This document shows positions 11,130-32,253 of a stretch of 64,000 nt of DNA, piece by piece. The notes beneath the pieces were generated by a model. The model did not search any database and was not told the origin of the DNA. It was given only the letters and a program-made list of their open reading frames with translations. Positions within the stretch are counted from its first letter, which is position 1; each line of letters opens with the position of its first letter. The position numbers and the translations under genes are program-made. Source of the DNA: Streptomyces sp. NL15-2K (GTDB lineage Bacteria > Actinomycetota > Actinomycetes > Streptomycetales > Streptomycetaceae); contig NZ_CP130630.1 of NCBI RefSeq assembly GCF_030551255.1, positions 10,043,001 to 10,107,000 on the forward strand, written 5' to 3'.

Positions 11130-15381
<4,252 letters not shown>

Positions 15382-15427: not shown

Positions 15428-15490
15428 CCGGGTTTCCCGTGCGTGCGCTGTGCCGGTCCTGGTCGGCCTCAACGGACTACGGTTGCCGCG

Positions 15491-15550
15491 CGACTCCGCG
15501 CGACTCCGCGCGACTCCGCGCGACTCCGCGCGACTCCGCGCGACTCCGCG
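15491..15550. repeat. Six perfect tandem copies of a 10-bp unit
   Basis: CGACTCCGCG is repeated six times without a mismatch, preceded by a partial unit. It lies between the beta-galactosidase terminator and the alkA-like gene, ~85 bases before the likely start. The unit is one helical turn long and is not a multiple of three, so copy-number change would alter promoter geometry or shift any longer N-terminal frame. Confidence 0.95.
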
Positions 15551-15635
15551 TGGCGATCCGGCGGGGTCCAGGACACGGGAGGTTGATGTCGGATTCTCGC
15601 CAGCCCCGGTCCGGCCCGTGCCCGATGCTGGACGC

Positions 15636-17135
15636 ATGCAGATGGGGATGCACACCGACACCGAGCGCTGCGTGCGCGCCGTCCAGTCCAAGGACGCCCG
15701 CTTCGACGGCTGGTTCTTCACGGCTGTCCTGACCACCCGCATCTACTGCCGGCCCAGCTGCCCGGTGGTTCCGCCCAAGCCCGAGAACATGACCTTCTAC
15801 CCGAGCGCGGCGGCTTGCCAGCAGGCCGGCTTCCGGGCCTGCAAGCGCTGCCGGCCCGACACCAGCCCGGGCTCCCCGGAGTGGAACCAGCGCGCCGACC
15901 TCGTGGCCCGCGCCATGCGGCTGATCGCCGACGGCGTCGTGGACCGCGAGGGCGTGCCCGGACTCGCCGCCCGGCTCGGCTACAGCCCCCGGCAGATCGA
16001 ACGCCAGCTGCTCGCCGAACTGGGCGCGGGCCCCCTCGCCCTCGCCCGCGCCCAGCGCGCCCAGACGGCCAGGCTCCTCATCGAGACGACCCCGCTCACG
16101 ATGGCGGAGATCGCCTTCGCCGCCGGTTTCTCCTCGATCCGCACCTTCAACGACACAGTGCGCGAGGTCTTCGCCCTCTCACCCAGCGACCTGCGCGCCC
16201 GGGTACCGAAGAAGACCTCCCCGGCCGGCCCGGTCGGCCCGGCCACCCCGGGCGCCCTCACCCTCCGCCTCCCGTTCCGCGCCCCCCTCAACCCCGACAA
16301 CCTCTTCGGCCACCTCGCGGCGACCGCCGTCCCGGGCGTGGAGGAGTGGCGTGACGGCGCCTACCGGCGCACGCTCCGACTGCCGTACGGCCACGGCATC
16401 GTGGCCCTCGCCCCGCGCCCCGACCACATCGCCTGCCGCCTCACCCTCAGCGACCTGCGCGACCTGACCGTCGCCATCAGCCGCTGCCGCCGTCTGCTCG
16501 ACCTGGACGCCGACCCGGTCGCGGTCGACGACCAACTGCGTACGGATCCGCTCCTCGCGCCCCTGGTCGACAAGGCGCCCGGCCGACGCGTGCCGCGCAC
16601 GGTCGACGAGGCGGAGTTCGCCGTACGGGCCGTACTCGGCCAGCAGGTTTCCACAGCGGCGGCCCGCACCCACGCGGCCCGCCTGGTCACCGCGCACGGC
16701 GAACCGGTGGACGACCCCGAGGGCGGCCTCACCCACCTCTTCCCGGCCCCCGAGGCGCTCGCCGCCCTCGACCCCCAGTCACTCGCGATGCCCCGCACCC
16801 GCCGTACCACCTTCACCACACTGATACGCGAACTCACCGACGGTGCACTCAACTTGGGCGTGGAGAGCGACTGGTCGCAGACCCGAGCCCGGCTCCTCGC
16901 CCTCCCCGGCTTCGGCCCCTGGACGGTTGACGTCATCGCGATGCGCGCCCTCGGCGACCCCGACGCCTTCCTCCCGACCGACCTCGGAATCCGCCGCGCC
17001 GCCCAGGAATTGGGCCTGCCGTCGACCCCGGCGGCGCTCACGGCCCGCGCGGCGGCCTGGCGGCCCTGGCGGGCGTACGCCGTCCAGTACCTGTGGGCGA
17101 CCGACAGTCACCCGATCAACTTCCTTCCCGTATAA
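15636..17135 (+). CDS. alkA: Ada metal-binding/AraC/AlkA fusion: 3-methyladenine DNA glycosylase
   Basis: 499 residues from ATG 15636; in-frame ATGs at 15642 and 15648 are equally possible. Order of domains: Ada-type zinc domain with four Cys (IYCRPSCPV and FRACKRCRPD), AraC-type HTH (~residues 85-180), AlkA N-terminal fold (~195-320), and the HhH-GPD glycosylase domain with PGFGPWTVDVIAMRALG and the catalytic Asp in DAFLPTDLGI. The Ada Cys can take a methyl group from phosphotriesters and turn the protein into an activator; the glycosylase removes alkylated purines. It is followed 17 bp later by ogt, a common actinomycete pairing that makes an adaptive-response operon. A tandem repeat tract lies upstream. 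Confidence 0.93.
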   Translation: MQMGMHTDTERCVRAVQSKDARFDGWFFTAVLTTRIYCRPSCPVVPPKPENMTFYPSAAACQQAGFRACKRCRPDTSPGSPEWNQRADLVARAMRLIADGVVDREGVPGLAARLGYSPRQIERQLLAELGAGPLALARAQRAQTARLLIETTPLTMAEIAFAAGFSSIRTFNDTVREVFALSPSDLRARVPKKTSPAGPVGPATPGALTLRLPFRAPLNPDNLFGHLAATAVPGVEEWRDGAYRRTLRLPYGHGIVALAPRPDHIACRLTLSDLRDLTVAISRCRRLLDLDADPVAVDDQLRTDPLLAPLVDKAPGRRVPRTVDEAEFAVRAVLGQQVSTAAARTHAARLVTAHGEPVDDPEGGLTHLFPAPEALAALDPQSLAMPRTRRTTFTTLIRELTDGALNLGVESDWSQTRARLLALPGFGPWTVDVIAMRALGDPDAFLPTDLGIRRAAQELGLPSTPAALTARAAAWRPWRAYAVQYLWATDSHPINFLPV

Positions 17136-17152
17136 GGACGTAGGCACAGCAG

Positions 17153-17647
17153 ATGAAGCAGCACACCGTGATCGACAGCCCCTACGGCCCCCTCACTCTC
17201 GTCGCCGACGACGGCGTCCTGTGCGGCCTCTACATGACCGACCAACGCCACCGCCCACCGGAGGAGACCTTCGGCCCCCGCGACGACCTGCCGGCCTTCG
17301 GCGAAGCGGCCGACCAGCTCAAGGCGTACTTCGCGGGCGAGTCGAAGGAGTTCACCCTGGAACTCCGCCTCACCGGCACGCCCTTCCAGCGCACCGTGTG
17401 GGAACAACTGCGCCGAATCCCCTACGGCGAGACCCGCACGTACGGCCAACTGGCCGACGCCCTCGGCAAAGCCGGCGCCTCCCGGGCCGTCGGCCTGGCC
17501 AACGGCAGGAACCCGATCGGCATCATCGTCCCCTGCCACCGCGTCGTCGGCGCCGACGGAAGCCTCACGGGCTACGGCGGCGGCCTGAACCGCAAGCAGC
17601 GACTGCTGGACTTCGAGCGGGGTGAGAGCGTAGAGGCCCTCTTCTAG
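17153..17647 (+). CDS. ogt: Methylated-DNA--protein-cysteine methyltransferase
   Basis: 164 residues with the invariant active-site motif PCHRVV and the DNA-binding helix TYGQLADALGKAGASRAVGLAN. It takes the alkyl group from O6-alkylguanine onto its cysteine in a single, suicidal turnover. It lies 17 bp after the alkA-like gene on the same strand, so the two are co-transcribed. It converges with the sirtuin gene, with ~20 bp between the two stops. Confidence 0.95.
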   Translation: MKQHTVIDSPYGPLTLVADDGVLCGLYMTDQRHRPPEETFGPRDDLPAFGEAADQLKAYFAGESKEFTLELRLTGTPFQRTVWEQLRRIPYGETRTYGQLADALGKAGASRAVGLANGRNPIGIIVPCHRVVGADGSLTGYGGGLNRKQRLLDFERGESVEALF

Positions 17648-17666
17648 GAGGCCCTCTTCCAGTCAG

Positions 17667-18404
17667 TCAGGGCGCTTTCTGGTCACTCAAGGTGCGCAGC
17701 AGCTTCGGCAGTGCCGTGCCGATCGGCTCCCGTATCACCTCGTCGGCCCGGTCGTCGTACGGTGTCGGCTCGGCGTTGACGATGATCAGCCGTGCCTCAT
17801 GGTCGGCGGCGACCCCCGCAAGCCCGGCGGCCGGCTGCACCTGAAGACTCGTCCCGACCGCGACGAACACCTGGCACGCCTTGCTGATCGCCACCGCCTC
17901 ACCCAGCACCACCGGATCGAGCCGTTCGCCGAACATCACCGTGGCCGACTTCAGGATCCCGCCGCACTCCAGGCACGGCGGATCCTCCTCACCGGCATCT
18001 ACCCGGGCGAGCGCGTCCTCCATGGGACCGCGCGCATGGCACTTCGTGCAGACGACGCTGCGTGCGGTGCCGTGCAGTTCGAGCACCTTGCGGGCGGGCA
18101 TCCCGGCGAGCTGGTGCAGCCCGTCCACGTTCTGCGTGATCACCCGCACCGGCACCCCGGACCGCTCCAGCTCGGCCACGGCCCGGTGCGCGGCGTTCGG
18201 CTCGGCCCGGAGGGTGCGGTTCTTGCGGCGCATCTGCCAGGACCGCCGCCGGATCTCCGGATCACCCATGTAGTACTCGTACGTCACGAGCTTCTCGGCC
18301 CCCGGATCCCGCCGCCACAGACCGTTCGGCCCGCGGTAGTCCGGGATTCCGGAGTCGGTCGAGATACCGGCGCCGCTCAGGATGGCGACGAGGGGCTTGG
18401 TCAT
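17667..18404 (-). CDS. Sir2-family NAD-dependent protein deacylase
   Basis: 245 residues from ATG 18404. Sirtuin motifs in order: GAGIS and SGIPDYRG (NAD loop), TQNVDGLH, the catalytic His in LELHG, a four-Cys zinc site (CTKC and CLEC), and VGTSLQVQPAAGL. It removes acyl groups from lysines using NAD and yields nicotinamide and O-acyl-ADP-ribose. MRRKNRTLRAEPNAAH lies in the helical segment after the NAD loop. The gene is monocistronic; the region before its start is repeat-rich. Confidence 0.93.
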   Translation of the reverse strand: MTKPLVAILSGAGISTDSGIPDYRGPNGLWRRDPGAEKLVTYEYYMGDPEIRRRSWQMRRKNRTLRAEPNAAHRAVAELERSGVPVRVITQNVDGLHQLAGMPARKVLELHGTARSVVCTKCHARGPMEDALARVDAGEEDPPCLECGGILKSATVMFGERLDPVVLGEAVAISKACQVFVAVGTSLQVQPAAGLAGVAADHEARLIIVNAEPTPYDDRADEVIREPIGTALPKLLRTLSDQKAP

Positions 18405-18524
18405 GTCACCGAGGGTAGGACGGGCGGTCCGGGGGCGGCGAACGATATCCGTCGTGGAAGTCATGGACGTCGAGGGCTGTCTCATGCCGTCGGCGGTGGA
18501 CGGTGGACAATCGCCGGACGCTCG

Positions 18525-18645
18525 TAGCCCGCAGCCCATAGCCCGCAGCCTGTAGACAGTGTGCAGTCCGCAGTCGCAAGTACACAGTCCGCAGTCGCCA
18601 GTCCGGGGTCCGCAGTCGGCAACCGGCACCGGGCACCGGGCGTCA
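18525..18645. repeat. Imperfect short repeats between the sirtuin and NUDIX genes
   Basis: The 246-bp gap (18405-18650) holds runs of related words such as GTAGCCCGCAGCC, GCAGTCCGCAGTCGC and ACAGTCCGCAGTCGCC, repeated with small changes, then ACCGGCACCGGGCACCGGGC. No supportable gene is present. It looks like decayed tandem repeat DNA rather than an operator. Confidence 0.6.
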
Positions 18646-18650
18646 CGGTG

Positions 18651-19145
18651 TCAGCCGACCCGCTGCCCGTTCTCCAGCTCCGCCGTCCCCGAGCCCTCGG
18701 CGAGGACGTCCAGCGCGGCCAGCACACGGTGGCCCGTGGCGCCCGGCAGGTATCGGGTGAGTTCCTCGCGGGGCACGAGCCGCCAGGACAGCAGCTCCTC
18801 CTCCTGGAGCCGGATCGCCTTGAGGTCGTCCTCGCCGAGGACCCCGCCGTCGTACAGATACGCCACCAGCGGCGGCCGGGCCGTCCCGTGCACCCAGTCC
18901 ACCGCGAGCAGCCGGCCGAGCTCGCGGTCCAGGCCGATCTCCTCGGCGGTCTCGCGGCGCGCGCCCTGGCGCGGGGTCTCGCCGTCGTCGGACTCGATCG
19001 TGCCGCCGGGAAGCGCCCAGCCCTCACGGTAGTTGGGCTCGACCAGCAGTACCCGGCCCCTCGCGTCGCGGAAGAGGGCGGCCGCACCGGCGAGGACCCG
19101 AGGGAGACCGGCGATGTACGTGGCGAAGTCTGGAGTGGTGGTCAT
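18651..19145 (-). CDS. NUDIX hydrolase
   Basis: 164 residues with a full Nudix box in the stretch ESDDGETPRQGARRETAEEIGL (REtaEEiG core). The family cleaves nucleoside diphosphates linked to another group; ADP-ribose, (d)NTPs and NADH are common substrates and the sequence does not choose between them. The N-terminal part RVLLVEPNYREGWALPGGTIE is a typical beta-strand entry to the box. It lies ~50 bp downstream of the four-gene conflict operon on the same strand, so readthrough is possible. Confidence 0.88.
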   Translation of the reverse strand: MTTTPDFATYIAGLPRVLAGAAALFRDARGRVLLVEPNYREGWALPGGTIESDDGETPRQGARRETAEEIGLDRELGRLLAVDWVHGTARPPLVAYLYDGGVLGEDDLKAIRLQEEELLSWRLVPREELTRYLPGATGHRVLAALDVLAEGSGTAELENGQRVG

Positions 19146-19192: not shown

Positions 19193-22100
19193 TCAGGCCT
19201 CCGGGAACGGATCGTCGCCGAGCAGCCGCCGGGTGGCGAGCGTGTCCTCGTGATCCGCTCCGAGCACGCGCACACGCTGGAGGTACAGACTCCGCGCCAT
19301 CTCCATCCCCTCGTTCTCCTGGCCCGATCCGAGCAGTGCGATGGCGAGCTCGTGGGCACTCGCCAGCGTGCTGGGATGGTCGCCCCCAAGAGCCTGGGCC
19401 CGGCCCCGATGAGCGGTACGCGCTTTCCGCAGGGCCTCGTCGTAGCGGTCGAGGGCGATCAGCGTGACGGCCAGGTTGTGGTAGGCCAGCAACGTGGCGG
19501 GATGCTGCTCCCCGACGGAGGACCGCCAGCCCTCGAGCACGGCGCTGTACACCGCGTACGCCTCGTCGCGGCGGTCGAGCCGGTTCAGCGTGTACGCCCG
19601 TTGCTGGTGCGTGTTCAGTGTGTCCGGATGCTCCGGGCCCAGCGTCGTCGTGCGCCGCGACGCCGTGTACTCGAAGGTGGAGAGGGCTTCCGTGAACCTC
19701 TTCGACTTCAAGTACAAGGCGCCCATCTCGTAGTGACTGGAGAGGGTGCCGGGGTGGTTGGCGCCGAGCAGGTCGCGCTGTTCGGCGGCGATGGCCTGCA
19801 GCGCGGTGAGCGCCTCCTGCACGAGTCCCGACCGCCCCATGAAGACAGCGTGGCGCTGCTCGTCCGTCAGCTTCGCGGCCGGGTCGACACGCGGCGCCGT
19901 CAGCAGCCGGCGGAAGCCGACGCCGGTCTGGGGGGAGCCGCCGTAGGTGAGGGAGCCCGCGCCGTCGTCGCCGAGGACGATCCGGTAGTCGAGTTCGGTC
20001 GCGGGGTCGGCCGTGCCCTCCAGCACAAGGAGGTGGACACCGAGCTCGGGCCGCAGGGCACGCCGCCAGGCGGCCATCGTCTCGGCGTCCCGCGCCTCGG
20101 TGACCACGACCACCGGGCCGAGCGGCGGAGAGGGCAGGATCGTGGCGCGGGTCTGGTCGAGCAGGATCGAACGGCGGTGCAACTCTCCGCCAAGTGCCTC
20201 GTCCACGTCCCTGGTGTCCGGCTGGAGGACGACTTGGCGCAGTGTTCTGGCGGCCGCGGGTTCCAGATACAGGCGGGCATCCCCGACGAGTACGAACCGG
20301 ATCTCGTCCGGCGCGTAAAGGCGGCGGGCCATGCCGTTCACAATGGTGTAGAGCAGGGCGGCCCGTGCGGCGAACGGCCCCTGGACGCTGCCGTGCGGGC
20401 CCATCTCGGCGAAGTCGAGGACCACCTTCCGGTCGTCGTCGCCGACACCGACCGGAACGGAACGGCGGACGACCGGCTCCCGGCCTGGCCGGAGCCCGAA
20501 GTCCCGCAGGAACAGGGCGAGATGCTCTGCCGAGGGGCGGTCCGCGAGGACCGGACCGCAGCAGAGTTGCAGCACCGCGCGCAGCCCGGGCGCCAACCCG
20601 GGACCGGCCGCCGCCAGCAGGAGTGATGCCAGCACCCCGACATCGTCGTGGCGGTCTTCGGAACGCCGGTCGACGCCCCATCCGGTCATGCAGACCTCGT
20701 CGCTGAACGGCAGGATCCGCTGCGCGGTGAGATTGCCGTGCACGATGCCCCTGGCGTGCGCGTGGGCGAGTACGTCCGCCGCGTGACGGCCGATGCCGAG
20801 GAAGCTCCCCTCCGGAAGCGGACCCCACCGATCCACCCGGTGGGCGAGACTCGGGACCGGGTAAGGGGGATCGCCGTTCTCCATGAGCAGGTTCGTCGCC
20901 GTCCAGGCGAGACCCACGTCCAGCAGGGCGGGCGCGCCCCTGCCCTTCAACGCGCGCAGCGTCTCGGCCTCCCGTTCCATGGACGCCTGGTCCGTGAACC
21001 GGATCGCCGCCGTTCGCCCCTTGTCGTCCCGCCCCAGGAACACCCCCTCGTCCGCCCGGGCCCGCTCGTGGCGGGCGAACAACCGCCAGCCACCCGCGGT
21101 CCGGGGGTCGCCCTCGCCGAGCGACAGCCACGGCGAATCGGGCGCGTCGACGAACTCGGGCAGCGTCTCCTCCGCCGCCTCGTCCGCGGCCGGTTGCTCC
21201 GGCACAGCAGGCGCGCGGGCGGGGCCCCGGGCGGACGCGGTCACCACGTCCGCCGGCACACCCAGCCGCCGCAGCAGACGCCGGTCGATCCAGCCGAACG
21301 CCTCCGACCCGGGGGCGGCCTGGTCCATGCCGTCCGGATCCGCCAGCCAGGCGGGAAAGTCGGGGGAGCGGCCGACCAGCCGGACCAACCGGTCGGCGAC
21401 GGCCCGGCCGGACTTGAGGAGCTCGACGGCGGGAGCCGTCCCGAGCAGGATGCCGCGGGCCTCCTCGCAGAAGTCGTACCGACGATGCTGCGGGAGCAGC
21501 GGGCCCGGCTCCTCGCCGGTGCGGCGCATCAGCCCGCCGAGGAACACCTCCGCGAGGTGGCCCGTGTCGAACCGCGGGCCGAGCACCTGCTGCACGAGCC
21601 GCATGACCGGGACGGACACCGGAGCCATCGCTGCCAGATGCGCGGCCAGCCGGTAGGCCTCGGGGGAAGCCGTCTCCCGGAACCGCAGGACGGCCTGCGG
21701 GGCCCTGGCCGGCGTATCGGGGAGACCGGCGGCGGACGAGGCGGCGAGCAGGGGCAGCACCTCGCTCGTCCCCGGAGACGCCACCAGCGCCGCAAACGCG
21801 CCCAGCGCCTCCGGATCGGGCGCGAGGACGGGCACCGGGACACCGTCGAACGCCGCCAGCTCCGTCGGCAGTACCGGGTCCGCCACCTCCCATTCGAGGT
21901 TCGCCGCACCGCGCCGCCGCGTGGTGACACGCCAGCGCGCTGCCCGTAGGCCTGACCCCTCCCACAACTGCCGGGGCAGGACGTGCAGTATGGCCGTCGG
22001 GCCGTACCGCCCCCACTGCCCGAGCTGCTCCCGCATCCGGCCGTCGCGCCAGGCCCCGCCCGCGCCGTCGCTGACGACGAGAAGGAGCGTCCGGCCCGTC

Positions 22101-22972
22101 GTGTCCGTCACCGTGGAGGGAGGCAAGGGGGCGGCCCCGGCCAGGAACGGGCGGCGGGCGAGCCGCGGGGCGTGCGGGCCGCGTGTGTCCAGGCCCAGGA
22201 CGCGTACGGTGCGGAACGCGCCGCTGCGTTCCAGCAGGCTTTTGACCTCGGTCGCGAGGCGCTGCCACAGGAGCATCGAGGTGCCGTCGTCCACCAGGAG
22301 CGTGACGTCCAGCCAGCGGGCCTGCGTCGGCCGCAGCACGGCGTCCGTCAGGCCGGTCTCCGCGGTCGCCTCGGCGGTGGCCGTCTCGTCCAGCTCCGAG
22401 TCACGCGGGTCACGGACGCGCAGCTTCAACGGACGTAGGGAGCGGCCCAGTTGAAGTTGACCGAAACGCGACGCCCGCGGCGCCGGTGCACGGAGGGGAC
22501 GCACGGGCGCGGTCGGGCGCGACGACGGCCGGTCGGCGTCCGCGTGCAGGGCGAGATGCGGCTGCGCCGCCGGCAGGGGAGCAGGTTCGTCACCGTCCGC
22601 CGGAGGCGGCGTGGCGCCTGCGCCGGGCGGATCCTTGCGCGGCGCGAACCAGTCGGTCGCCGGGGCCGGTGAAGCGGGGGCGGCGGTGTCGTCCGGGGTG
22701 CCGGACTCGGGTTCCGGGTCCGAACCCGGGCCGCTCACCCCGCCGACCGCCCGTGCCAGCGGCGCAGACACGTCCGCGGGCATGCGTCTCGCCAGCCACA
22801 GCGTGTCCAGCAACTCGTCGGGGGTCAGCTCCACACCGCTCTCGGTGAGGATCGTGGCCACCCGCCCAAGGGCCTGAGCGCGTGCCGTGGGCGATCCATG
22901 GGGAGACGGCGGATCCCGGTCCGGCTCTCCGCCACTCTCCCCGCTCCGCCCGGATCCGGTCCGCACGTTCAC
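19193..22972 (-). CDS. vWA / pseudokinase / TPR protein (SAV_2336-like) of a MoxR-trypsin system
   Basis: 1259 residues, GTG start. From the N-terminus: a short helical domain (~30-80, LTPDELLDTLWLARRM), a Pro/Ala-rich linker, and a von Willebrand A-like domain (~220-420) whose MIDAS-like loop reads VDDGTSM and whose next strand reads LLLVVSDGAGG. A kinase-fold region (~630-830) lacks key residues: the beta-3 lysine is Arg (TAAIRF) and the catalytic loop reads IVHGNLTAQ instead of HRDLKPxN, so it is probably a pseudokinase. After a further domain (~840-1040), tetratricopeptide repeats run from ~1065 to 1235 (LGANHPGTLSSHYEMG, LGPEHPDTLNTHQQRA). The start overlaps the MoxR stop by one base. 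It probably acts as sensor or scaffold. The family match is from recall of SAV_2336-type proteins. Confidence 0.85.
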   Translation of the reverse strand: MNVRTGSGRSGESGGEPDRDPPSPHGSPTARAQALGRVATILTESGVELTPDELLDTLWLARRMPADVSAPLARAVGGVSGPGSDPEPESGTPDDTAAPASPAPATDWFAPRKDPPGAGATPPPADGDEPAPLPAAQPHLALHADADRPSSRPTAPVRPLRAPAPRASRFGQLQLGRSLRPLKLRVRDPRDSELDETATAEATAETGLTDAVLRPTQARWLDVTLLVDDGTSMLLWQRLATEVKSLLERSGAFRTVRVLGLDTRGPHAPRLARRPFLAGAAPLPPSTVTDTTGRTLLLVVSDGAGGAWRDGRMREQLGQWGRYGPTAILHVLPRQLWEGSGLRAARWRVTTRRRGAANLEWEVADPVLPTELAAFDGVPVPVLAPDPEALGAFAALVASPGTSEVLPLLAASSAAGLPDTPARAPQAVLRFRETASPEAYRLAAHLAAMAPVSVPVMRLVQQVLGPRFDTGHLAEVFLGGLMRRTGEEPGPLLPQHRRYDFCEEARGILLGTAPAVELLKSGRAVADRLVRLVGRSPDFPAWLADPDGMDQAAPGSEAFGWIDRRLLRRLGVPADVVTASARGPARAPAVPEQPAADEAAEETLPEFVDAPDSPWLSLGEGDPRTAGGWRLFARHERARADEGVFLGRDDKGRTAAIRFTDQASMEREAETLRALKGRGAPALLDVGLAWTATNLLMENGDPPYPVPSLAHRVDRWGPLPEGSFLGIGRHAADVLAHAHARGIVHGNLTAQRILPFSDEVCMTGWGVDRRSEDRHDDVGVLASLLLAAAGPGLAPGLRAVLQLCCGPVLADRPSAEHLALFLRDFGLRPGREPVVRRSVPVGVGDDDRKVVLDFAEMGPHGSVQGPFAARAALLYTIVNGMARRLYAPDEIRFVLVGDARLYLEPAAARTLRQVVLQPDTRDVDEALGGELHRRSILLDQTRATILPSPPLGPVVVVTEARDAETMAAWRRALRPELGVHLLVLEGTADPATELDYRIVLGDDGAGSLTYGGSPQTGVGFRRLLTAPRVDPAAKLTDEQRHAVFMGRSGLVQEALTALQAIAAEQRDLLGANHPGTLSSHYEMGALYLKSKRFTEALSTFEYTASRRTTTLGPEHPDTLNTHQQRAYTLNRLDRRDEAYAVYSAVLEGWRSSVGEQHPATLLAYHNLAVTLIALDRYDEALRKARTAHRGRAQALGGDHPSTLASAHELAIALLGSGQENEGMEMARSLYLQRVRVLGADHEDTLATRRLLGDDPFPEA

Positions 22973-23979
22973 TACACCGTTCCGCCGAGCCGGTGCAGTA
23001 CGGCTTCCAGCAGCCCCCCGGGGGAAAGGTCGACGCCACCCTTCCGCAGGAAGACCGCGTTGAGCAGTTGGTCGGTGGCCAGCTCTCCAGAGGCGCGGCG
23101 GTCGAGGAACGTGTCCAGCAGTTCGTCCACGTCGGCGAGGTCCGCGTCCTCGAGATGGGCTCGCACGATGTCACGCAGCCGGTTCCCGTCCGGCTCCGCG
23201 ATCTCCAGGCGCACACAGCGACGCAGGAACGCGGGTGGGAACTCACGTTCGCCGTTGCTCGTGATCACGACCACGGGGAACTCCGAACAGCGCACCCGGC
23301 CCCGCACGACCGGCACCCGCGCCTCGGGATCCGCGGTCAGCACCTCGACCCGGTCCTGCTCCTCGGGCAGCCGGGCCAGTTCGGGAATCTCGAACTCACC
23401 GTCCTCGAAGACCGCCAGCAGGTCGTTGGGCAGATCCACGTCCCCCTTGTCGAGCTCGTCGACAAGCAGGACCCGCGGGCGCTCGGACGGGACGAGGGCG
23501 GTGCCGAGCGGGCCGAGACGGACGTATGAGCCGATGTCCGGCCCTTGTCCGTGCGGCGGCTCCTCGCAGGCCTGCTCCCGGCGCAGATTGGATTCGCGCA
23601 GCCGCCCGATGGCGTCGTACCGGTACAGCGCGTCCTGCAGTGTGGAGCGGCTGTTGACCGGCCAGCTCAGCACCCTGCCGAGGGACAGCTCGTGGGCGAC
23701 GGCGTGGGCGAGGGAGGACTTGCCCGTGCCCGGATGGCCGGTGACGAGCAGCGGTCGGCGCAGCAGGAGAGCCGCGTTGACCACATCGGCCTCCGCGGGC
23801 CCGATCAGATACGGCAGCGGCTTCGAGGGCTCGGAACCGCTCGGCGCGGAGGTGAACCGCCGCCAGGGCGGAGCCTCGGGGAACGTGACCTGCCGGGACT
23901 GCCCGTCGCCCCGGAAGAGCCGCCAGCCGTCGGCCCCCGGCCCGCTCGGTGGACTGCCGGGGTAGTGGGGTGCCGTCAT
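22972..23979 (-). CDS. MoxR-type AAA+ ATPase
   Basis: 335 residues from ATG 23979. Walker A is GHPGTGKSS (~residue 82), Walker B is VLLVDELDKGDVDLPNDLL (~170), sensor-1 is VVITSNGEREFP and the arginine finger region is PAFLRRCVRLEI. This is the layout of MoxR-clade ATPases, which work with vWA partners as chaperone-like remodellers. The start overlaps the trypsin gene stop (ATGA) and the stop overlaps the vWA gene start. MoxR plus vWA plus a third associated protein is the known pattern of vWA-MoxR-VMAP ternary conflict systems. Confidence 0.92.
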   Translation of the reverse strand: MTAPHYPGSPPSGPGADGWRLFRGDGQSRQVTFPEAPPWRRFTSAPSGSEPSKPLPYLIGPAEADVVNAALLLRRPLLVTGHPGTGKSSLAHAVAHELSLGRVLSWPVNSRSTLQDALYRYDAIGRLRESNLRREQACEEPPHGQGPDIGSYVRLGPLGTALVPSERPRVLLVDELDKGDVDLPNDLLAVFEDGEFEIPELARLPEEQDRVEVLTADPEARVPVVRGRVRCSEFPVVVITSNGEREFPPAFLRRCVRLEIAEPDGNRLRDIVRAHLEDADLADVDELLDTFLDRRASGELATDQLLNAVFLRKGGVDLSPGGLLEAVLHRLGGTV

Positions 23980-26144
23980 CGGCTGAGCGCTCCTTCGTCC
24001 GGGTCGGTCAACTGCAGTTCGGGATCCTCGTGGGCCAGGCCGTCCCAGGTGTGGTCCTCCCACACGAGGGAGGGCCGAGCCGCATGAGCGGACGGTGCCA
24101 TCAGAGTCTGGCCCCGGTACCGGTGCACGCGGCCGGGCAGCTCGTGCAGTGGCCCGGTCGGCGCGAGGGGGGCGAGGCGCGCGGCGTGGTCGTGACCGAG
24201 TGCCTCGCGGTCCCACAGCACCACCGGGACACCCAGGGCGAGGCACAGGTCGAGCAGCTGATCGCGCAGTTCGGGCGGACCGTGCAGCACCACCTGGTTG
24301 GCGTCGAGGTGAGTGGACCTCAGCAGAGCGGCCACTTCCCGGCTGTCCACGTGCTCCCTGCCGATGGCCAGAGGCCGCCCCCTCCCGTCGCCCCACCGGC
24401 GCTGCCGCTCCGCATCACGCATCGGCACCCGGCGGCTCATCTCCGGGCAGCGCAGGGTCAGTTGGAAGGCGACACCGAGGGGCAGGCTCGGCTCGAAATC
24501 GTTGGGCCGGCCCGTCTCCCACTCGTCGACCGGCAGATGGAGTCCGGCGCGGTCCACTTCGATGTCCACCGCGGGAGGCTGTGAACTGGTGTCGTGCTGG
24601 AGGCGTTCGGCCCCGTCGCGGATCACGGTGGCGACCTGTTCGGCTGTGAGAGGCGCATCGCCGGCGGTGGTGTCCATACGGTGCCGGGAGCCGTCCGGCC
24701 GCTGCTGCCACAGCCGGCACCGGAAACATCCGGGCGCGGCGGGGCCGTACGCGGCGAGCCGGGCCAGCAGCCTGGTCCGCGGAGCCGTCCGCAGCCCGGC
24801 CCACTGCCGGGCGTCCGCGCGCCGCTGGTTACGCGCCACCGGGTGCACCCCCAGCCGGCCGCAGACCCGGTTGCTCCAGTCCTGCAGTGCCTGCCGCTGA
24901 GTGTCGGGCAATCCGGCGGCTATGAACTCGACGACGTGGACCAGGGAGGGAACGCGGGGCGTGTCCTCCGGCCCTGGATCTCCCTCCTGGCAGCCCTCCA
25001 GTCCGGTGATCACCTCGTTCACCGCCTCGGGCCGCAGCACGGGCTCGCACAGGGCGGCGGGCGGCTGCGTGAACCGCAGTGCCTCCTGCGCCGCACGGGC
25101 GGGCAGGGTGTTGTCCCAGGCCGTCACGTCACGCAGCCGCTCCTCCAGGAACGCGTACTCGCCGTGCGACAGCAGTCCGGCCGCCTCGATGACCCGGCCG
25201 AGGGCGAGCAGTGTGTTCAGCCGGCCCGGCCGCCTTCCGTCGGGGCCGGTGACCAGGGACTCGCTGAGCGTCGGCAGTGCGCGCTCCGTGGTGAGCAGTT
25301 CGGCGGCCAGCTCTTCCACCGTCGGCGCGCTGCCGTCCTGCGGCGGGTCGAGTTTCAGCTCCTGCGCGAGGTGCCGTGCGGGCTCCACCCGTGCGGCCGG
25401 AGCGGGCAGCAACTCTCTCAGTACGGCGACGAGACCGGCGCCGACCGGGTCGTGCGCGGGAACCGTACGCACCGTGCGGCAGGTCGTGACGACGGCCCGG
25501 GCCCCTACGCGGTCCAGCTCGGCGCGCACCGTCTGCCAGGGCAGCGCCCAGGCCCGCCGCACCGTGTGTCCGGCCGCCACGGCACCGCCCGGCGGTTCCA
25601 GCCGGCCCACCACCAGGCCGACCGCCGTGCGGCACGACGGGGTCCACAGCGGACCCCCGCTGAACCCCGGACCGATCGCGGCGCCCGACAACTCGCCGTC
25701 CAGATAGCCGACTTCCTGGTCGAGCAGTTTCATCTCGACGTCCGCGAACGTGACCGGATCACCGCAGCCGTGCCACGCCCGCAGGGTCTGCCGCTGGGTC
25801 ATGTCCGCCCAGACGACGGGCGGCGCCCACTCCGGCGCGGGCTCGGCCAGCCGTAGCACGCACAGGTCGCCGTGCCACACCGCGGTGCCGCTCCTGGGCG
25901 GCACCCATACCTCGACCCGTGCCCGGCTCCGCGACGCGCCGCGGGCGAAGACGACGTCGAGATCCCCGTCCGCGGGCCGCCCGGTGCTGAGCTGCGGCAG
26001 CCCGAGGGCCTCGTTGACCACATGCGCGCAGGTCAGTACCCGGTCCGAGGTGAGCAGAGCGGCGGCTCCGGCCGCCGTGCCACCGTCGGGGGCGTGGACG
26101 GAGACCACCGGCGGCGGGCCGGCGGACCGTTGGAACCAGCTCAC
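23976..26144 (-). CDS. Trypsin-like serine protease fused to a VMAP-like C-terminal region
   Basis: 722 residues, GTG start directly after the stop of the small upstream gene. The first ~210 residues are a chymotrypsin-fold protease with an intact triad: His41 in LTCAHVV, Asp93 in HGDLCVLRL and Ser162 in GPGFSGGPLW. No signal peptide or membrane segment is seen, so it is cytoplasmic. The remainder has helical segments (~residues 230-450) and a C-terminal alpha/beta part (~470-700) with LWQQRPDGSRHRM, QVVLHGPPELRDQL and GVPVVLWDREALG, which resembles the C-terminal region of vWA-MoxR-associated proteins. The likely role is an effector or switch that cleaves a cellular or partner protein once triggered. 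The VMAP assignment is recalled family knowledge and would need a profile search. Confidence 0.82.
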   Translation of the reverse strand: MSWFQRSAGPPPVVSVHAPDGGTAAGAAALLTSDRVLTCAHVVNEALGLPQLSTGRPADGDLDVVFARGASRSRARVEVWVPPRSGTAVWHGDLCVLRLAEPAPEWAPPVVWADMTQRQTLRAWHGCGDPVTFADVEMKLLDQEVGYLDGELSGAAIGPGFSGGPLWTPSCRTAVGLVVGRLEPPGGAVAAGHTVRRAWALPWQTVRAELDRVGARAVVTTCRTVRTVPAHDPVGAGLVAVLRELLPAPAARVEPARHLAQELKLDPPQDGSAPTVEELAAELLTTERALPTLSESLVTGPDGRRPGRLNTLLALGRVIEAAGLLSHGEYAFLEERLRDVTAWDNTLPARAAQEALRFTQPPAALCEPVLRPEAVNEVITGLEGCQEGDPGPEDTPRVPSLVHVVEFIAAGLPDTQRQALQDWSNRVCGRLGVHPVARNQRRADARQWAGLRTAPRTRLLARLAAYGPAAPGCFRCRLWQQRPDGSRHRMDTTAGDAPLTAEQVATVIRDGAERLQHDTSSQPPAVDIEVDRAGLHLPVDEWETGRPNDFEPSLPLGVAFQLTLRCPEMSRRVPMRDAERQRRWGDGRGRPLAIGREHVDSREVAALLRSTHLDANQVVLHGPPELRDQLLDLCLALGVPVVLWDREALGHDHAARLAPLAPTGPLHELPGRVHRYRGQTLMAPSAHAARPSLVWEDHTWDGLAHEDPELQLTDPDEGALSR

Positions 26145-26510
26145 CTACGCTCCGTGCGAATCTCGCCGCCAGGTCGCCGACACCGTCATCGTGGCCTTGC
26201 CCTTGGCGCTCACGATGCCGAGTTTCAGATCCTTGCCCACCTCGACACCGAACTCGACCGTGAAGGACTCGGGCGGCTGCTGCGCCCCCGACACCGCCGC
26301 ATGGACCTCGTCCAGGAGCGGGCCCAGCGGGCGCAGTGTCGCACGCAGCCCCTCGACGGCGAGAGCGGCGACCCGGCCCCCGCCGACGGCGACGGCGCTC
26401 GGCGCGCCGAACTCCGCAGGCAGTCCCGGGGCCGGCGGTGCTTCGCCGACATCGGCGACCGCCACGCGGACGGCCGCTCCGGCCAGATCGAGTTCCAGGT
26501 ACTCCGGCAT
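26145..26510 (-). CDS. Trypsin-co-occurring small protein (Trypco1/CU044_2847-like)
   Basis: 121 residues. A beta-strand N-terminus (PEYLELDLAGAAVRVAV) is followed by a helical middle and a conserved-looking tail, ESFTVEFGVEVGKDLKLGIVS then KATMTVSATW. This pattern matches my recollection of small proteins encoded next to trypsin-like proteases in actinomycete conflict systems. The TAG stop directly abuts the GTG of the protease gene, so it is the first cistron of the operon. No clear Shine-Dalgarno precedes the ATG. Its function is unknown; an adaptor or regulator of the protease is plausible. Confidence 0.72.
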   Translation of the reverse strand: MPEYLELDLAGAAVRVAVADVGEAPPAPGLPAEFGAPSAVAVGGGRVAALAVEGLRATLRPLGPLLDEVHAAVSGAQQPPESFTVEFGVEVGKDLKLGIVSAKGKATMTVSATWRRDSHGA

Positions 26511-26738: not shown

Positions 26739-27272
26739 TCACCGTCGACCTGCGGATTCCGTCGCACTGCGGAACGCCTCTGTCTCCACCAGCCGGAGCG
26801 TCCGCTCCGCCAGCTCGCTGATGCGCACCCCGTCGAAGCCGAACACCGCGCTGCGCACCGTGTCCTCCAGCGGTTCCTTCCACTGTGCCGGGATGGCGTC
26901 CGCGCCGGTCAGTACGCCGACCACCGAGCCCGCGGTCGCCCCGTTGGAGTCGGTGTCCAGGCCGCCGCGGACGGTGAGGGTGATGGTGCGGGTGAAGTCG
27001 CCGTCGCCGTAGAGGAGGCCGGCGGTCAGCACGGCGACGTTCGGGATGGTGTGGATCCAACCGAGCCGGGCGGTCTCCTCGTCGACGGTGGTGAGCGTGT
27101 CCTCCCAGGTCATCCGGGTGTCGTGGAGGGAGACGACCCGGCGTACGGTACGGGCGAGGCGGCTGCTCGCCGGGACGACCGCGAGCGCCTGGTCGACGGC
27201 GTGCCGCACGGTCGACGCCGTGAACGCCGCCGAGACCAGCGCCGCCGCCCACATCGCCCCGTACACGCTAAA
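26739..27272 (-). pseudogene. ADP-ribosylglycohydrolase-family protein, 5'-truncated
   Basis: About 175 residues of the C-terminal half of an ADP-ribosylglycohydrolase: YGAMWAAALVSAAFTA, TIPNVAVLTAGLLYGDGDF and the metal-binding GGLDTDSNGATAGSV. Family members are ~300-350 residues, so the N-terminal half with its own metal ligands is gone. Homology stops at ~27272, next to sequence that leads into transposase remnants, so a mobile element or deletion probably removed the 5' end. The fragment is unlikely to be active because the metal site is built from both halves. Confidence 0.8.
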
Positions 27273-27327
27273 ACCCCGTTCTTGGGCTACTCCGAAAGGG
27301 GGCCTTAACCTCGGATCTTGAACACGT

Positions 27328-27505
27328 CTATGCGGCTTGGGCCAGGGTAGTTGCTGCTGGTTGCAAGTCGTTCTCGTAGGCGATCGGAGATCGCTGACCA
27401 AGGCGGGAGTGCTGGCGTCGGGTGTTGTATCGGGTCAGCCAGCGGAAGGCGTCGAGTCGCGCCTCGTGCTCGTTCGACCAGCTTTTGCGACCCTTGTCCT
27501 TGGCG
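27328..27505 (-). mobile_element. IS3-group transposase remnant (C-terminal end of OrfB)
   Basis: About 58 residues match the C-terminus of IS3-type integrase-fold transposases: GRKSWSNEHEARLDAFRWL and RYNTRRQHSRLGQRSPIAYE. The catalytic DDE domain is missing. It marks the boundary between the truncated ADP-ribosylglycohydrolase and the accessory stretch to the right. Confidence 0.8.
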
Positions 27506-27554
27506 GAGATCAAGAACTGGCCCGCCACCGTCAGCGTCACCCGCTGCGCCCTGG

Positions 27555-27700
27555 CGCTCGGGTAGGCAAGACCGCGTTGTACGACCAGATCAAGCGCGGG
27601 GAGCTGCCCGTCCGGACCATCCGCGTCGGGGCGCCGTAGGGCCGTGGTGACCGCCTCCCTAGTCCGCCTGCTGGAGACCGGAAGCCCCGACCCCCAGCCG
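27555..27700 (+). pseudogene. Excisionase-like helix-turn-helix gene remnant
   Basis: One frame reads GKTALYDQIKRGELPVRTIRV, typical of the small HTH/excisionase proteins of actinomycete integrative elements. It ends at a stop, while the natural continuation VVTASLVRLLETG is in another frame just downstream. The gene is N-terminally truncated and frameshifted. It suggests that an integrative element once sat here. No attachment site or integrase is visible. Confidence 0.6.
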
Positions 27701-27966
27701 ACCCCGCCCGCTCCGGCCTCCGCGCTCGTGGCGGCCGGACATGGCGACTCTGGCCTCCCGGCACCACCTGACCGCCGACGGCGGCGGCGGGGTGGAGAGC
27801 AGCACGCACCCGGACAGCGGCGAACGTGTCTGGACGTGCTCCGCCTGCCCCGCACGAGGCAGCGGCGAAGACGCGGCACGTGCCCACGCGGCGCAGTGCC
27901 GTGGCTACAGCACCCGCCAGGGCGGCCGCAAAGCCCAACGCTGCGGGCCCTGGTTACGATCCCCCG
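27701..27966. other. Non-coding or decayed stretch
   Basis: No intact gene. A plus-strand frame contains WTCSACPARGSGEDAARAHAAQC, with a CxxC...HxxxC pattern resembling the small zinc-knuckle proteins of mobile elements, but without convincing ends. Confidence 0.3.
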
Positions 27967-28410
27967 ATGGAATGGTGGAAAACGATCGCGCCCCTGGTCG
28001 GCGTCGTTCTGGGAAGTCTCGGCACACTGCTCGGACAGAAGTTGTCCGACACCCGCACCCTCCGACGTGATCGGCTGCTTGCTCAAGAAGAAGCGAAGAT
28101 CCGTCTGGCCGCAGAGCGGGCGACTCTCCAGCGGGAATCAATCATGGAGATACAGCACGCGCTTGAAGGCAGCATGGCAGCGAACGAGCTGCCGCCCGGG
28201 GTCAGGATGAGTGAGCAATTCCGGGCAGCGGCAACGGAATCCGCATTGCACCTCCGTGCCCACATTGCGCGACTCGAAGACCGCGAACTGGCCGCCAGTG
28301 TGTTGGTGTGGCTGCAGCCACACCGAAGCGCGGCAGCAGCCCGGACGGCGCTCGACGCCCTTCAGGACCGCCTGAGCCGCCATCTCCGAGGGCTCTACGC
28401 GGATCGGTAG
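27967..28410 (+). CDS. Small membrane-anchored coiled-coil protein of unknown function
   Basis: 147 residues. One N-terminal membrane segment (IAPLVGVVLGSLGTLLGQKL, residues ~7-26) is followed by a charged helical region (RRDRLLAQEEAKIRLAAERATLQRES) likely to form a coiled coil in the cytoplasm, and a helical C-terminus. I do not recognise a family. The layout resembles small anchor proteins found in actinomycete accessory islands. The ATG at 27967 lacks a strong ribosome site. Confidence 0.6.
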   Translation: MEWWKTIAPLVGVVLGSLGTLLGQKLSDTRTLRRDRLLAQEEAKIRLAAERATLQRESIMEIQHALEGSMAANELPPGVRMSEQFRAAATESALHLRAHIARLEDRELAASVLVWLQPHRSAAAARTALDALQDRLSRHLRGLYADR

Positions 28411-28974: not shown

Positions 28975-31900
28975 CTATAGCCGGATGTCGCGGGTCCAGG
29001 CTTTGGAGCTGCCCGGCGAACTGGTCTTGCATGCAGCGGCGTAGCACCGCCAGACCCAGGCGTTCTTCCAGCGTCGGATTTCGATCTCTGCTCCCTTACA
29101 CCGCCCGCACTTCGGGGGCCGGGCGAAAGTCTCCGCGTGTTCGTGTGCGAGTAGTTTGCGGGCGAAGTAGCCGCCGTGCATCGTTAGCATGACTTCGCGT
29201 GTGTTGCTTTGTGAGAGTGCGTTGAGGCTGCCGAGCATGACGGTGTGTTCGTCGATCACTGCGATTTTCTGGTGCATGACATGGATGGGGACAACGGTCT
29301 GGGCGACGGTGCGCAGGTCTGCGATGAGTGCCTGACTGGTCTCTCTTCTTTGGAGTTGGTCGGTGTCGTCTCGGATGAACACGGTGATGCGTACGCCGCG
29401 GTCGGCCGCTGCTTTCAGTTCAGGGAGCAAGGCGCGGATCCGGTTGGCCACCCATGGTGCCCAGAGCCACAGGGATTGTTTTGCCTGTCGGATCTCGGTG
29501 GTGAAGGTGATGTAGAAGTCGCGTTCGTCGTCGATGTCGGTCACTTCGACGTGCCGGCTGAGGACTTCGGCGAGGGCGATGCCGAACTCCCCGCGATGGG
29601 CCGGTGGCGTGTGTGGCGGGGTGATGAGGTGTTTGGCAGGCAGTACCCGGACACCGTGGGTGCCGACCAGGGCGTCGAGTTCAGCCAGGGCTGTTCCCGG
29701 CCTGGCCCCGCTGACGCGTTGCCCGCTGGCGATGACGTAGAGGCGGGTTCTGACGCGGGTGACGGCGACGTTGAACAGGCGCACGCCGTTGCGTCTCCAC
29801 TCGTCAGCGCCGGGCTGGCGGTGGGCGAGAGCCATCCACAGTTCGCGGCTGTCCGCGTTGCCTTCCACGGTGTCGAAGATGACGACGTCGAACTCCCGGC
29901 CCTGAAACCTGTGTGCCGTTCCAACTTCGGCCAGCGGACGGCCACCGGAGCCTTCGACATCTCGTAGTGCTTCCAAGGTGGCTTCGGCCTGGACCCCGTA
30001 CGGGGTGACGATTCCTGCTTCTTCGCCCTGCTCGCGGTGCAGTTCCACCAGAGCCCGCGCGAGGAGAGAGCCGGCCGGCCACCAGCCTTTCCGGCTGCCG
30101 GTCAAGTGGGCTCGGGCCAGCTCGTGCAGGCCGTCGGTGTCGATCAGCACGATCTCGGGATCGCTGTCGGGCCGCTCCGCAAGCGTCTGGGAGCCGCCGC
30201 GCAGCATTCCCCCGTAGGCGAGACCGTTGGCCAGTTTCATCAGGGCTGGGCCGAAGCGATGCTGTTCGGTCAAGGTGACGCAGGCCGGGTGTGCCTGGGC
30301 ATCCGCGGGTTCGAAGATGCCGCAGTGCTGAAAGACGTCGGGGAGCAGCCAGTTTTTGATGTCGTCGCGTTCCTGCTCCTTGAGCCCGCTCGGGATGACT
30401 GGGCCGAGCTGCATGAAATCGCCGAGCAGGACGGCAGCTCTACTGGCTTTGCCGGTGGCCAGGAGCACCTCGGGCAGAGCGGCTGCACCGGCCTCATCGA
30501 CCAAGACCACGTCGTAAGGGCCTTCGAAAACTGCCCGGTTGGAACGGAACCGGGCCAGTGTGGTGGCGACCAGCTTGGCGCTCTTGATGATCTCGCCCTG
30601 GGCGTTGCGGGCCAGCCGCTCGTATTCCTCCTGGGTGTTCTGGTACTGCTGCTCCAGCTGCGGCTTACGGGCGCTTTCGGCGGCCACAAGTGGACGGAGG
30701 CGTTCGGCCCGGTCGTGCAGGGTCGGCCAGTCCTTCTTCGCGGCCTGTTCGGTCAGCGTCTGGGCCTGTTGCGCTGCGACAGCCGCCGCAGTGGCCTGGT
30801 TCTTTTCCTGCTCGGCCGAGGTACACAGTCTGTGTGCCCGCTCTGTTGCCGCCCGTGTGGCGTGGGCCTCTCTGTCGAGGTGCCGGATCTGTTCCCGGCT
30901 GAGCGGGACGGAGTCGGACAGCTCCGTGATTTTGGCATCGAGTGCAGAGATCCGGGCGGCGGCGGTATGGTGCGCGTCCACGGACTGCTGACGCGCTGCC
31001 TCCGCCTGCTCTTCGGCGTCAGCCAGTTGCTCCTGGAGCGCGACCAGCTTCTCGCGCGCACGCCAGCGGGCCACCGACCCTTTCGCCTCCCACTGCTTCA
31101 CCTGATTCCGCAGGGGTCGGCACTCCTCAGCGGCCAGCAACGCATCAGCTGCTCGGTGTTCTGCAGCCTGCCGGACCCTGGCCGACTCGTCGCAGAGCCG
31201 GTCCACCTCGCGCCATACCTCGCGCGAGGGCTCTGCTGCGGCAGCCCGGTCCGACGCCACCTTCGCCGCCTCCGCAGTTTCGGCCATGTCGCGAGCGGCC
31301 TGCGCGTACCGGTCGTCGGCCGCGTCGCTGCGGGCCAGTGCGGAGGCCAGGTCCTGACCGGGCGTGCGCAGCAGTTGCAGTGCAGCGAAGTATCCGGCCG
31401 CGTCGAACCCGGCGAGTGCAGCGTCCATGGCGGCAAGTTGACCGGCGCGGTCGCGGATGTCGACCAGTTCAGCTTCCACGGCGCTACGGCGCTGAGCCGT
31501 CTGCGCTAATCGGGTTCGGAGCATGAGCGGCAGCGACACCGAAGGGTCTTCCGCCACCTCTTTAAGATGCGGCGGGCCCACACGGACGATCTCACCCGGA
31601 CTGTGGCGCTTCTCCCGCACCACCCCGAGCAGGGCGTTATCCACAGCGACATTGGTCGCAGAGACCAGCAGCACCCGCTCGCCCCGCGCGATCAGGTCAC
31701 CGATGGCGCGTTTGAGGACCGTGGTCTTACCGGTCCCCGGCGGCCCCCACACCAGATGAACCCCTTCACCCAGGCACGCCCGGTAGGCGTCTGCCTGGGC
31801 CGGGTGGAATCCAGGAGGGTCCGGCTCCGCTCCCGGAGCCCCGCCGATACTGCGGGCTGCCAGGGCCGCGGCCAGCGGGTGTTCGCCCAGTTGGGCGATG

Positions 31901-32253
31901 CCGTCGCGCAGGGCCTCGATGAGGAAGGTGGGCGGCTGCTTCAGCATCCACAGGTGGGCGTCGGTGATGTCGGCGAACTCGGCCACACGCAAGGTGAGCA
32001 GGGACCCGTTCTGCACCGTCTCGGAGACGCTGAAGCCGTCCTTCTCGATGGCCCTGTCGTGGGGCCCGGCCAGCCGCAGGCTGTCCAACTGGTCCGGCCC
32101 GATGTCAGTGCCGCGCAAGTCCACCGCGTACTGGCCGGATTCACCGGTCCGGGCCGCTCGCCCGATCCGCTGCCAGCGCGCTCTTCTCCCTGCGCCTCCT
32201 TCCAAGGCGATCCATTCGCCGAGTGCCGCCGTGATCTCCTCACGCCACCCCAC
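28975..32253 (-). CDS. SF1 (Upf1/Dna2-like) helicase with C-terminal phospholipase-D nuclease-like domain
   Basis: 1092 residues. An N-terminal domain (~1-150) is followed by a superfamily-1 helicase core split by a long coiled coil. Walker A is VWGPPGTGKTTVLKRA (~168), the coiled coil runs ~330-560 (many Glu/Ala/Lys heptads), Walker B is DVVLVDEAGAAALPEV (~580), then GDFMQLGPV and the motif V/VI region GTAHRFQGREFDVVIFD (~790). The last ~200 residues hold one PLD motif (HQKIAVIDEHTVMLGSLN, ~990) and end in a Cys4-like finger (CGRC...RCYAAAC). One HxK motif suggests the nuclease forms a dimer. The layout fits nucleic-acid defence or repair; isolated helicase-PLD proteins of this kind occur in accessory islands. 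No partner gene is certain. Confidence 0.85.
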   Translation of the reverse strand: MGWREEITAALGEWIALEGGAGRRARWQRIGRAARTGESGQYAVDLRGTDIGPDQLDSLRLAGPHDRAIEKDGFSVSETVQNGSLLTLRVAEFADITDAHLWMLKQPPTFLIEALRDGIAQLGEHPLAAALAARSIGGAPGAEPDPPGFHPAQADAYRACLGEGVHLVWGPPGTGKTTVLKRAIGDLIARGERVLLVSATNVAVDNALLGVVREKRHSPGEIVRVGPPHLKEVAEDPSVSLPLMLRTRLAQTAQRRSAVEAELVDIRDRAGQLAAMDAALAGFDAAGYFAALQLLRTPGQDLASALARSDAADDRYAQAARDMAETAEAAKVASDRAAAAEPSREVWREVDRLCDESARVRQAAEHRAADALLAAEECRPLRNQVKQWEAKGSVARWRAREKLVALQEQLADAEEQAEAARQQSVDAHHTAAARISALDAKITELSDSVPLSREQIRHLDREAHATRAATERAHRLCTSAEQEKNQATAAAVAAQQAQTLTEQAAKKDWPTLHDRAERLRPLVAAESARKPQLEQQYQNTQEEYERLARNAQGEIIKSAKLVATTLARFRSNRAVFEGPYDVVLVDEAGAAALPEVLLATGKASRAAVLLGDFMQLGPVIPSGLKEQERDDIKNWLLPDVFQHCGIFEPADAQAHPACVTLTEQHRFGPALMKLANGLAYGGMLRGGSQTLAERPDSDPEIVLIDTDGLHELARAHLTGSRKGWWPAGSLLARALVELHREQGEEAGIVTPYGVQAEATLEALRDVEGSGGRPLAEVGTAHRFQGREFDVVIFDTVEGNADSRELWMALAHRQPGADEWRRNGVRLFNVAVTRVRTRLYVIASGQRVSGARPGTALAELDALVGTHGVRVLPAKHLITPPHTPPAHRGEFGIALAEVLSRHVEVTDIDDERDFYITFTTEIRQAKQSLWLWAPWVANRIRALLPELKAAADRGVRITVFIRDDTDQLQRRETSQALIADLRTVAQTVVPIHVMHQKIAVIDEHTVMLGSLNALSQSNTREVMLTMHGGYFARKLLAHEHAETFARPPKCGRCKGAEIEIRRWKNAWVWRCYAAACKTSSPGSSKAWTRDIRL

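Follow-up and report, generated by a model that had tools for sequence, protein, structure and literature searches.

An operon of four abutting genes in Streptomyces sp. NL15-2K is, judged by its domains and motifs, a well-formed member of the predicted VMAP ternary class; this membership is close to certain. The operon lies on the minus strand of the window (the whole stretch of 64,000 nucleotides that was analysed), in a genome of 12.4 Mb, and the closest named relatives of its proteins and of the locus belong to Streptomyces. The proposal as a whole, a VMAP ternary system of the trypsin/Trypco1 type in which a bait tail triggers MoxR–vWA remodelling and then execution by trypsin, is given somewhat less than an even chance. 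The genes and their domains are as follows.

26145..26510, minus strand: Trypco1 (CU044_2847 family), 121 aa, first gene of the operon and probable trypsin partner (PF19493, NF041216)
23976..26144, minus strand: trypsin-VMAP protein, 722 aa, with trypsin-like protease, middle region and VMAP-C
25617..26057, minus strand: Trypsin_2 domain, residues 30-176 (PF13365, E 1.1e-7; His41, Asp93 and Ser162 present)
24054..24725, minus strand: VMAP-C domain, residues 474-697 (PF20028, E 2.4e-32; predicted fold may resemble CHAT/separase)
22972..23979, minus strand: MoxR-type AAA+ ATPase, 335 aa from ATG (Walker A/B and N-terminal motifs)
19193..22972, minus strand: vWA component, 1259 aa, GTG start
21380..22822, minus strand: vWA core, SAV_2336_NTERM, residues 51-531 (NF041121, E 3.5e-113)
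20573..21085, minus strand: pseudokinase module, about residues 630-800 (alignment with relatives; PF00069 at E 3.1e-8 in the related locus L059; weak kinase matches)
19880..20473, minus strand: decayed EccC-type FtsK/SpoIIIE ATPase module, residues 834-1031, P-loop lost
19223..19837, minus strand: TPR repeats, about residues 1046-1250 (PF13424 (TPR_12), E 2.7e-23)

Operon layout and class membership

On the minus strand, each of the four ORFs is open at the place given by the first-pass annotation. The junctions of 0, 4 and 1 bp that it gave are also correct: the TAG of Trypco1 is directly followed by the GTG of the VMAP gene, the VMAP and MoxR genes overlap by 4 bp, and the MoxR and vWA genes by 1 bp. 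The last of these hinges on the GTG start of the vWA gene; the database entry of the same protein has 1222 aa and is thus 37 residues shorter. In the related locus L075, tblastn similarity begins at residue 2 of the vWA protein and at residue 1 of both MoxR and trypsin-VMAP, which favours the three downstream starts as used here. The suggestion of stoichiometric expression is unsupported, as abutting genes suggest only translational coupling. An artefact of ORF calling in high-GC DNA is ruled out by profile matches of the encoded proteins.

The MoxR protein (AAA_5, E 3.8e-7 in the Pfam scan) contains WRLFRG at position 19, PPWRRF at 37, Walker A GHPGTGKS at 81 and Walker B LLVDE at 171. In the available part of Kaur et al. 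(PMC7159879), the N-terminal motifs WxhapG and PsWRxa are described as unique to MoxR proteins of the VMAP ternary class. Both are found here together with intact AAA+ motifs; the first has Arg at its fifth, polar position, and the second has Pro where a small residue is called for. The best NCBIfam match of this protein, MadB_ATPase (E 9e-18), scores 64.5 bits where the cut-off is 475, and may point to a kinship.

In the trypsin-VMAP protein, His41, Asp93 and Ser162 are kept, as already noted, in TCAHVV, HGDLCVL and GFSGGPL (triad assigned by eye). The same columns hold H-D-S in 58 of 120 aligned VMAPs; many of the remaining sequences are apparently out of register at the Ser column, and a regex pass can pick up a nearby SGAA, so that these figures do not tell how many of the proteases are active. 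The C-terminus, for which a match to an unrelated family had been considered, is VMAP-C by profile (PF20028, 113.1 bits against a cut-off of 27). The Pfam scan of the window protein gave no match to the VMAP-M middle region at E<=1; in the related locus L062, PF19916 falls just under its cut-off (24.3 against 25.9 bits).

The assignment of the 121-residue protein to the Trypco families is confirmed by PF19493 (E 4.7e-16 in the Pfam scan), with NF041216 at E 1.1e-11 (NCBIfam). At E<=0.001, 98 Trypco1 relatives were found among 291 candidates, and the family is common in the genus (228 of 295 genomes). The structure model is poor (pLDDT 58.1). Elsewhere in the same genome, near 7.11 and 6.37 Mb, two Trypco1 genes (L073 and L074) stand outside VMAP systems; large frames adjoin them, one of 1536 aa with a trypsin match and one of 1419 aa.

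The vWA domain has two MIDAS aspartates, in VTLLVDDGTS and LLLVVSDG (assigned by eye). The N-terminal motif [D/E]xxx[D/E]xxxa, taken strictly with F/Y/W, has no match in residues 1-120; DELLDTLW at 52-59 comes close.

The reading as a MoxR/vWA/trypsin/Trypco1 ternary system is thus supported by domains, motifs, gene order and co-occurrence: VMAP-C is present in the third component, the 5'-3' order is VMAP, MoxR, vWA, Trypco1 stands beside trypsin-VMAP, and the vWA protein has variable C-terminal modules. That order is given as a rule of the class in the portion of Kaur et al. (PMC7159879) that is accessible. With the trypsin/Trypco1 subtype of Kaur, Burroughs, Iyer and Aravind (2020, PMC7159879), as presented in that portion, the operon shares the four components, their order, the MoxR motifs, the VMAP-fused trypsin and inactive kinase and FtsK modules in vWA. 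It differs in its tail (pseudokinase, decayed EccC-type module, TPR), which is rare: among the best 7990 candidates, the EccC-type module had a match in 7 proteins, counting the window's own. That part of the paper was not found to describe an EccC origin, a chromosomal insertion site or a possible fold resemblance of VMAP-C. The VMAP systems of Thiohalocapsa that are linked to diversity-generating retroelements (PMC10907252) share, in the accessible text, MoxR, vWA and trypsin-VMAP, with Trypco1 nearby in related loci; there the retroelement diversifies a C-type-lectin domain of the vWA target, whereas the tail here consists of pseudo-enzymes and TPRs. The system models of PADLOC-DB 2.0.0 (E<=0.01) matched only the P-loop region of MoxR and the kinase region of vWA, and none matched VMAP or Trypco1. 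No laboratory test of a VMAP system was found among the open-licence PMC papers searched.

The tail of the vWA protein

The initial description of this gene as vWA-pseudokinase-TPR is right as to the vWA core, the degenerate kinase and the TPRs, but it missed a third tail module at about 834-1031, of decayed EccC/FtsK type. The pseudokinase is degenerate at three places (assigned by eye): the Lys of VAIK is Arg, HRD is HGN and DFG is GWG, with VAIK, HRD and DFG being the kinase motifs that we take to correspond to this region. Losses of like kind are seen in the kinase region of six aligned relatives.

Residues 834-1031 gave nothing useful by Pfam at E<=10 or in a PDB profile search (best match a designed protein, E 0.16). 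A search of a 5.8-billion-protein database, in which the best 7990 candidates by shared words were scored, returned 7 proteins including the window's own, all of 1222-1274 aa and with TPRs. In the genomes of the genus, matches at E<=1e-3 occur in 182 of 246; among the matches listed, the module aligns mainly to long frames (about 1320-1500 aa). For six genomes (G000, G001, G002, G003, G004 and G006), coordinates are given both in this list and in that of the PF01580 (FtsK_SpoIIIE) matches, and in each of the six the module match overlaps a PF01580 match.

The window's own genome encodes a counterpart of 1340 residues, in a single frame, whose three P-loops (GATGSGKS, GGPQSGKS and GESESGKS) are intact. 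Going by these P-loops and its length, we take this FtsK/SpoIIIE protein to be EccC, the motor ATPase of type VII secretion. Residues 834-1031 of the vWA protein align to the first of the three P-loop domains, in this protein (E 7.5e-8, pairwise) and likewise in those of relatives: VPVGVGDDDRKVVLDFAE...MGPHG in vWA parallels VPIGVGEDGRPVMLDLKE...MGPHG in the counterpart, and LGVHLL is kept at the end. The module differs from EccC in its fusion to vWA and in its losses; there is no Lys or Ser where GATGSGKS stands, Walker B VIDE has become VVTE (Asp to Thr), and about 40 residues are missing. The residue-level motif reading of the module against relatives covered four plus-strand loci. In the vWA protein of L059, PF01580 matches at E 0.0012, below the gathering score, and the P-loop reads GGTDAGRR.

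By these motifs the vWA tail apparently contains two dead copies of cellular machines, a kinase and an EccC-type motor. Inactive kinase and inactive FtsK domains in vWA tails are already reported in the accessible part of Kaur et al. (PMC7159879); the EccC origin of the FtsK-type module is a refinement of that description.

Relatives and chromosomal site

The loci compared came from 11 genomes besides the window's own, with 2 further loci from a single-protein related-locus search; they are the best VMAP matches and not a random sample. The VMAP search had matched 20 of 61 genomes: the own genome, the 11 used, and 8 whose matches were confined to roughly the first 200 residues (the trypsin part) and which were left out. 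VMAP, MoxR and the vWA core occur in that order in all 13 loci outside the own genome, and in 12 of the 13 the gene immediately upstream of VMAP is Trypco1; the scattering of homologues that would have spoken against the first-pass annotation was not seen in these loci. In L062 (trypsin-VMAP at 7780-9942), no Trypco1 neighbour was detected, so the pairing of trypsin-VMAP with Trypco1 apparently has an exception, which counts against the proposal. The four genes recur in L075, where VMAP identity is 81%. The window's own genome carries three further VMAP loci, making four in total. Tails and parts vary between loci.

L059 tail: kinase, weak FtsK, TPR
L060 tail: kinase and a sub-threshold MinD/ParA match
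L066-L069 tails: BTAD, NB-ARC and TPR
L061 and L063 tails: no named family
L070 (own genome, near 3.53 Mb): trypsin-VMAP, Trypco1 gene, kinase and BTAD tail
L071 (own genome, near 7.77 Mb): trypsin-VMAP, weak Trypco1 profile match (E 7.8e-4), tail without named family
L072 (own genome, near 8.80 Mb): EAD2 in place of trypsin, no Trypco1 match, NB-ARC and TPR tail

The four genes behave as a unit, both in the correlated identities of their products and in the presence or absence of the whole cassette at one site. Pairwise identities of the components correlate with r between 0.71 and 0.94 (Trypco1-VMAP 0.94, VMAP-vWA core 0.85, Trypco1-MoxR 0.71; Mantel p 0.001 each, 999 permutations) across the 13 loci with all four genes, namely the window, 10 genomes and the 2 further loci. 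Identities were taken from stop-to-stop frames, so that the Trypco1 and MoxR values include some upstream non-coding letters. The comparison covered the linked genes only, and shared vertical descent would explain the correlations as well as partnership would. Identity of the tail correlates too (r 0.87 with vWA core, 0.96 with VMAP, 0.93 with Trypco1, 0.78 with MoxR); the distances therefore do not show fast swapping of tails. The tail does diverge faster than the core, with identities to the window of 0.16-0.71 versus 0.34-0.76 over 12 loci.

In the window, L059, L075 (Streptomyces sp. BK340) and L076 (S. lasiicapitis), the cassette is flanked by an ADP-ribosylglycohydrolase gene on one side and by a NUDIX gene on the other. 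The filled site spans 7.57-8.19 kb, measured from the stop of one flank to the match of the other. Beyond NUDIX follow Sir2, ogt and ada-alkA in the window and L059, and ogt and ada-alkA in L076; the L075 sequence runs out shortly past NUDIX. In L060, the cassette sits between NUDIX and Sir2. Empty sites were sampled through the Sir2 gene, which has a match at E<=1e-60 in 77 of 101 genomes. Of the 30 loci given, 20 were used; the 10 left out included the own genome and G014 (L060), both of which carry the cassette at the site. In all 20 sampled loci, tblastn of the four proteins found no match within 17-19 kb. Both flanks were visible in 15 of the 20, with a gap of 28-178 bp in 13 and of 2.1 and 3.4 kb in the other two. 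The fillers of these larger gaps are presumably reductase- and regulator-like genes. Filled, empty and otherwise-filled sites point to gain or loss of the four genes as one block at an insert-prone site. A mobile element carrying the cassette was considered and rejected: in the window, the four genes occupy the gap between the flanking genes save for about 230 and 50 bp.

Several features of the neighbourhood may be recorded in their own right. The string Ada-AlkA, Ogt, Sir2, NUDIX (window 15450-19145) is kept in most Streptomyces loci examined, with various cassettes inserted around NUDIX. In L153, the NUDIX-Sir2 gap is filled (9428-12346, reverse-complemented coordinates) by a gene with motifs that we take, by recognition, to be subtilisin-type, and by a gene of unassigned family. 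At 28975-32253 (minus strand), 2.5 kb from the operon, an SF1 helicase (AAA_11/AAA_12) is fused to a PLD-like domain; its PADLOC matches are MkoA (E 1.4e-45), MkoC and DrmC, and it is possibly a separate defence gene. At 26739-27401 and 27328-28086 (both minus strand), the ADP-ribosylglycohydrolase gene is truncated at its 5' end (profile positions 160-286 of 287) beside a sub-threshold integrase-core (rve_3) remnant; the frame at the same place in L059 has 358 aa.

The truncated neighbour and the integrase remnant would suit a cassette that is itself decaying or silent, with no present function. Four open frames, the intact MoxR and trypsin motifs and the retention of all four genes in L075 at 81% VMAP identity make this highly improbable.

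Patchy occupancy of the site bears on a further alternative, in which the operon would be a developmental or envelope-stress switch of Streptomyces and not an immune system; the pseudokinase/pseudo-EccC tail would sense the state of a host kinase or of the type VII secretion system, and trypsin would make a programmed cut. The EccC-like module does stem from a host machine and not from a phage part, and the accessible text of Kaur et al. (PMC7159879) finds VMAP systems concentrated in multicellular bacteria (694 of 716 organisms). Patchiness, and the presence in one genome of four VMAP loci made of different parts, suit accessory conflict modules better than a core regulator, and the switch is considered distinctly unlikely. 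As the first-pass annotation said, an immune role for the operon is inferred.

Signal flow and the nature of VMAP-C

In the preferred mechanism, the vWA tail would serve as a bait: besides the TPRs, it would present inactive copies of two host machines, a Ser/Thr kinase and the type VII secretion motor EccC. An invader factor engaging this bait would cause the MoxR ring to spend ATP and remodel the vWA-VMAP complex, with VMAP-C acting as the receptor of VMAP for the MoxR-vWA signal. Remodelling would unleash the trypsin domain of VMAP, which Trypco1 may hold or mature, and its cleavages would lead to growth arrest or death of the infected cell. This mechanism is, at best, about an even bet.

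The direction of flow, with the tail sensing and trypsin acting, is preferred because intact enzyme motifs are limited to MoxR and trypsin; only these two look enzymatic, as their motifs are kept and the tail has neither an intact kinase nor an intact P-loop motif. The same direction, from vWA tail to VMAP peptidase, has been proposed for retroelement-linked systems in the accessible part of PMC10907252. The live EccC-like counterpart in the same genome, with three intact P-loops, and the variation of tails between loci would favour the bait reading.

The opposite flow is found in the available text of Kaur et al. (PMC7159879), where VMAP senses and trypsin releases effectors from the tail. 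Applied here, the variable middle region of VMAP would sense the invader, MoxR-vWA would rearrange, and trypsin would free the pseudokinase, pseudo-EccC and TPR tail as a dominant-negative effector. This model has the standing of a published prediction, and dead copies of enzymes whose live counterparts work in the cell suit a dominant-negative role, an EccC-like counterpart being present in the same genome. The anatomy of the operon fits the opposite direction equally well, and that direction is argued for in the accessible part of PMC10907252. A tail set free as a dominant-negative would be an explanation almost on a par with the preferred bait model, and is in itself rather unlikely.

The structure model of VMAP-C has a pLDDT of 87.9, and a Foldseek comparison of the model with Csx29/TPR-CHAT (Craspase) and separase gave a best E of 0.042, with TM-scores of at most 0.38 among the ten best. 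No sequence-profile similarity to CHAT was found: with a comparison profile built from 29 CHAT loci, hhalign probabilities were 0.0-0.4, and the score of 14.8 compares with values of up to 17.3 in 30 column-shuffled controls. An alignment of 103 rows, mostly from one clade, has His621 in 79, Cys566 in 87 and Cys634 in 91; within it there is no invariant His-Cys pair, and no His reaches 80%. Lacking profile-level similarity and such a pair, VMAP-C is not classed as a member alongside Csx29/TPR-CHAT and separase. Going by the structure model, it may be a CHAT/separase-like scaffold, possibly an inactive one.

A bolder version, which is doubtful, would make VMAP-C an inactivated CHAT/separase (caspase-like) protease and VMAPs trypsin-pseudocaspase fusions. 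MoxR-vWA would then act on the pseudocaspase and so switch trypsin on, and the sensor of this operon would amount to a 'museum' of defunct host machines, a kinase and a type VII secretion motor, that is, a bacterial form of guard-and-decoy immunity.

The locus can separate the two published models of signal flow, because its four genes form a compact unit for which relatives show clear empty sites, the protease offers one Ser to mutate, and the dead tail modules name likely host counterparts. The operon adds a good new example to a known predicted class and gives a hint of the nature of VMAP-C. If the fold of VMAP-C is that of CHAT/separase, the orphan third component of VMAP systems would join a known protease superfamily.
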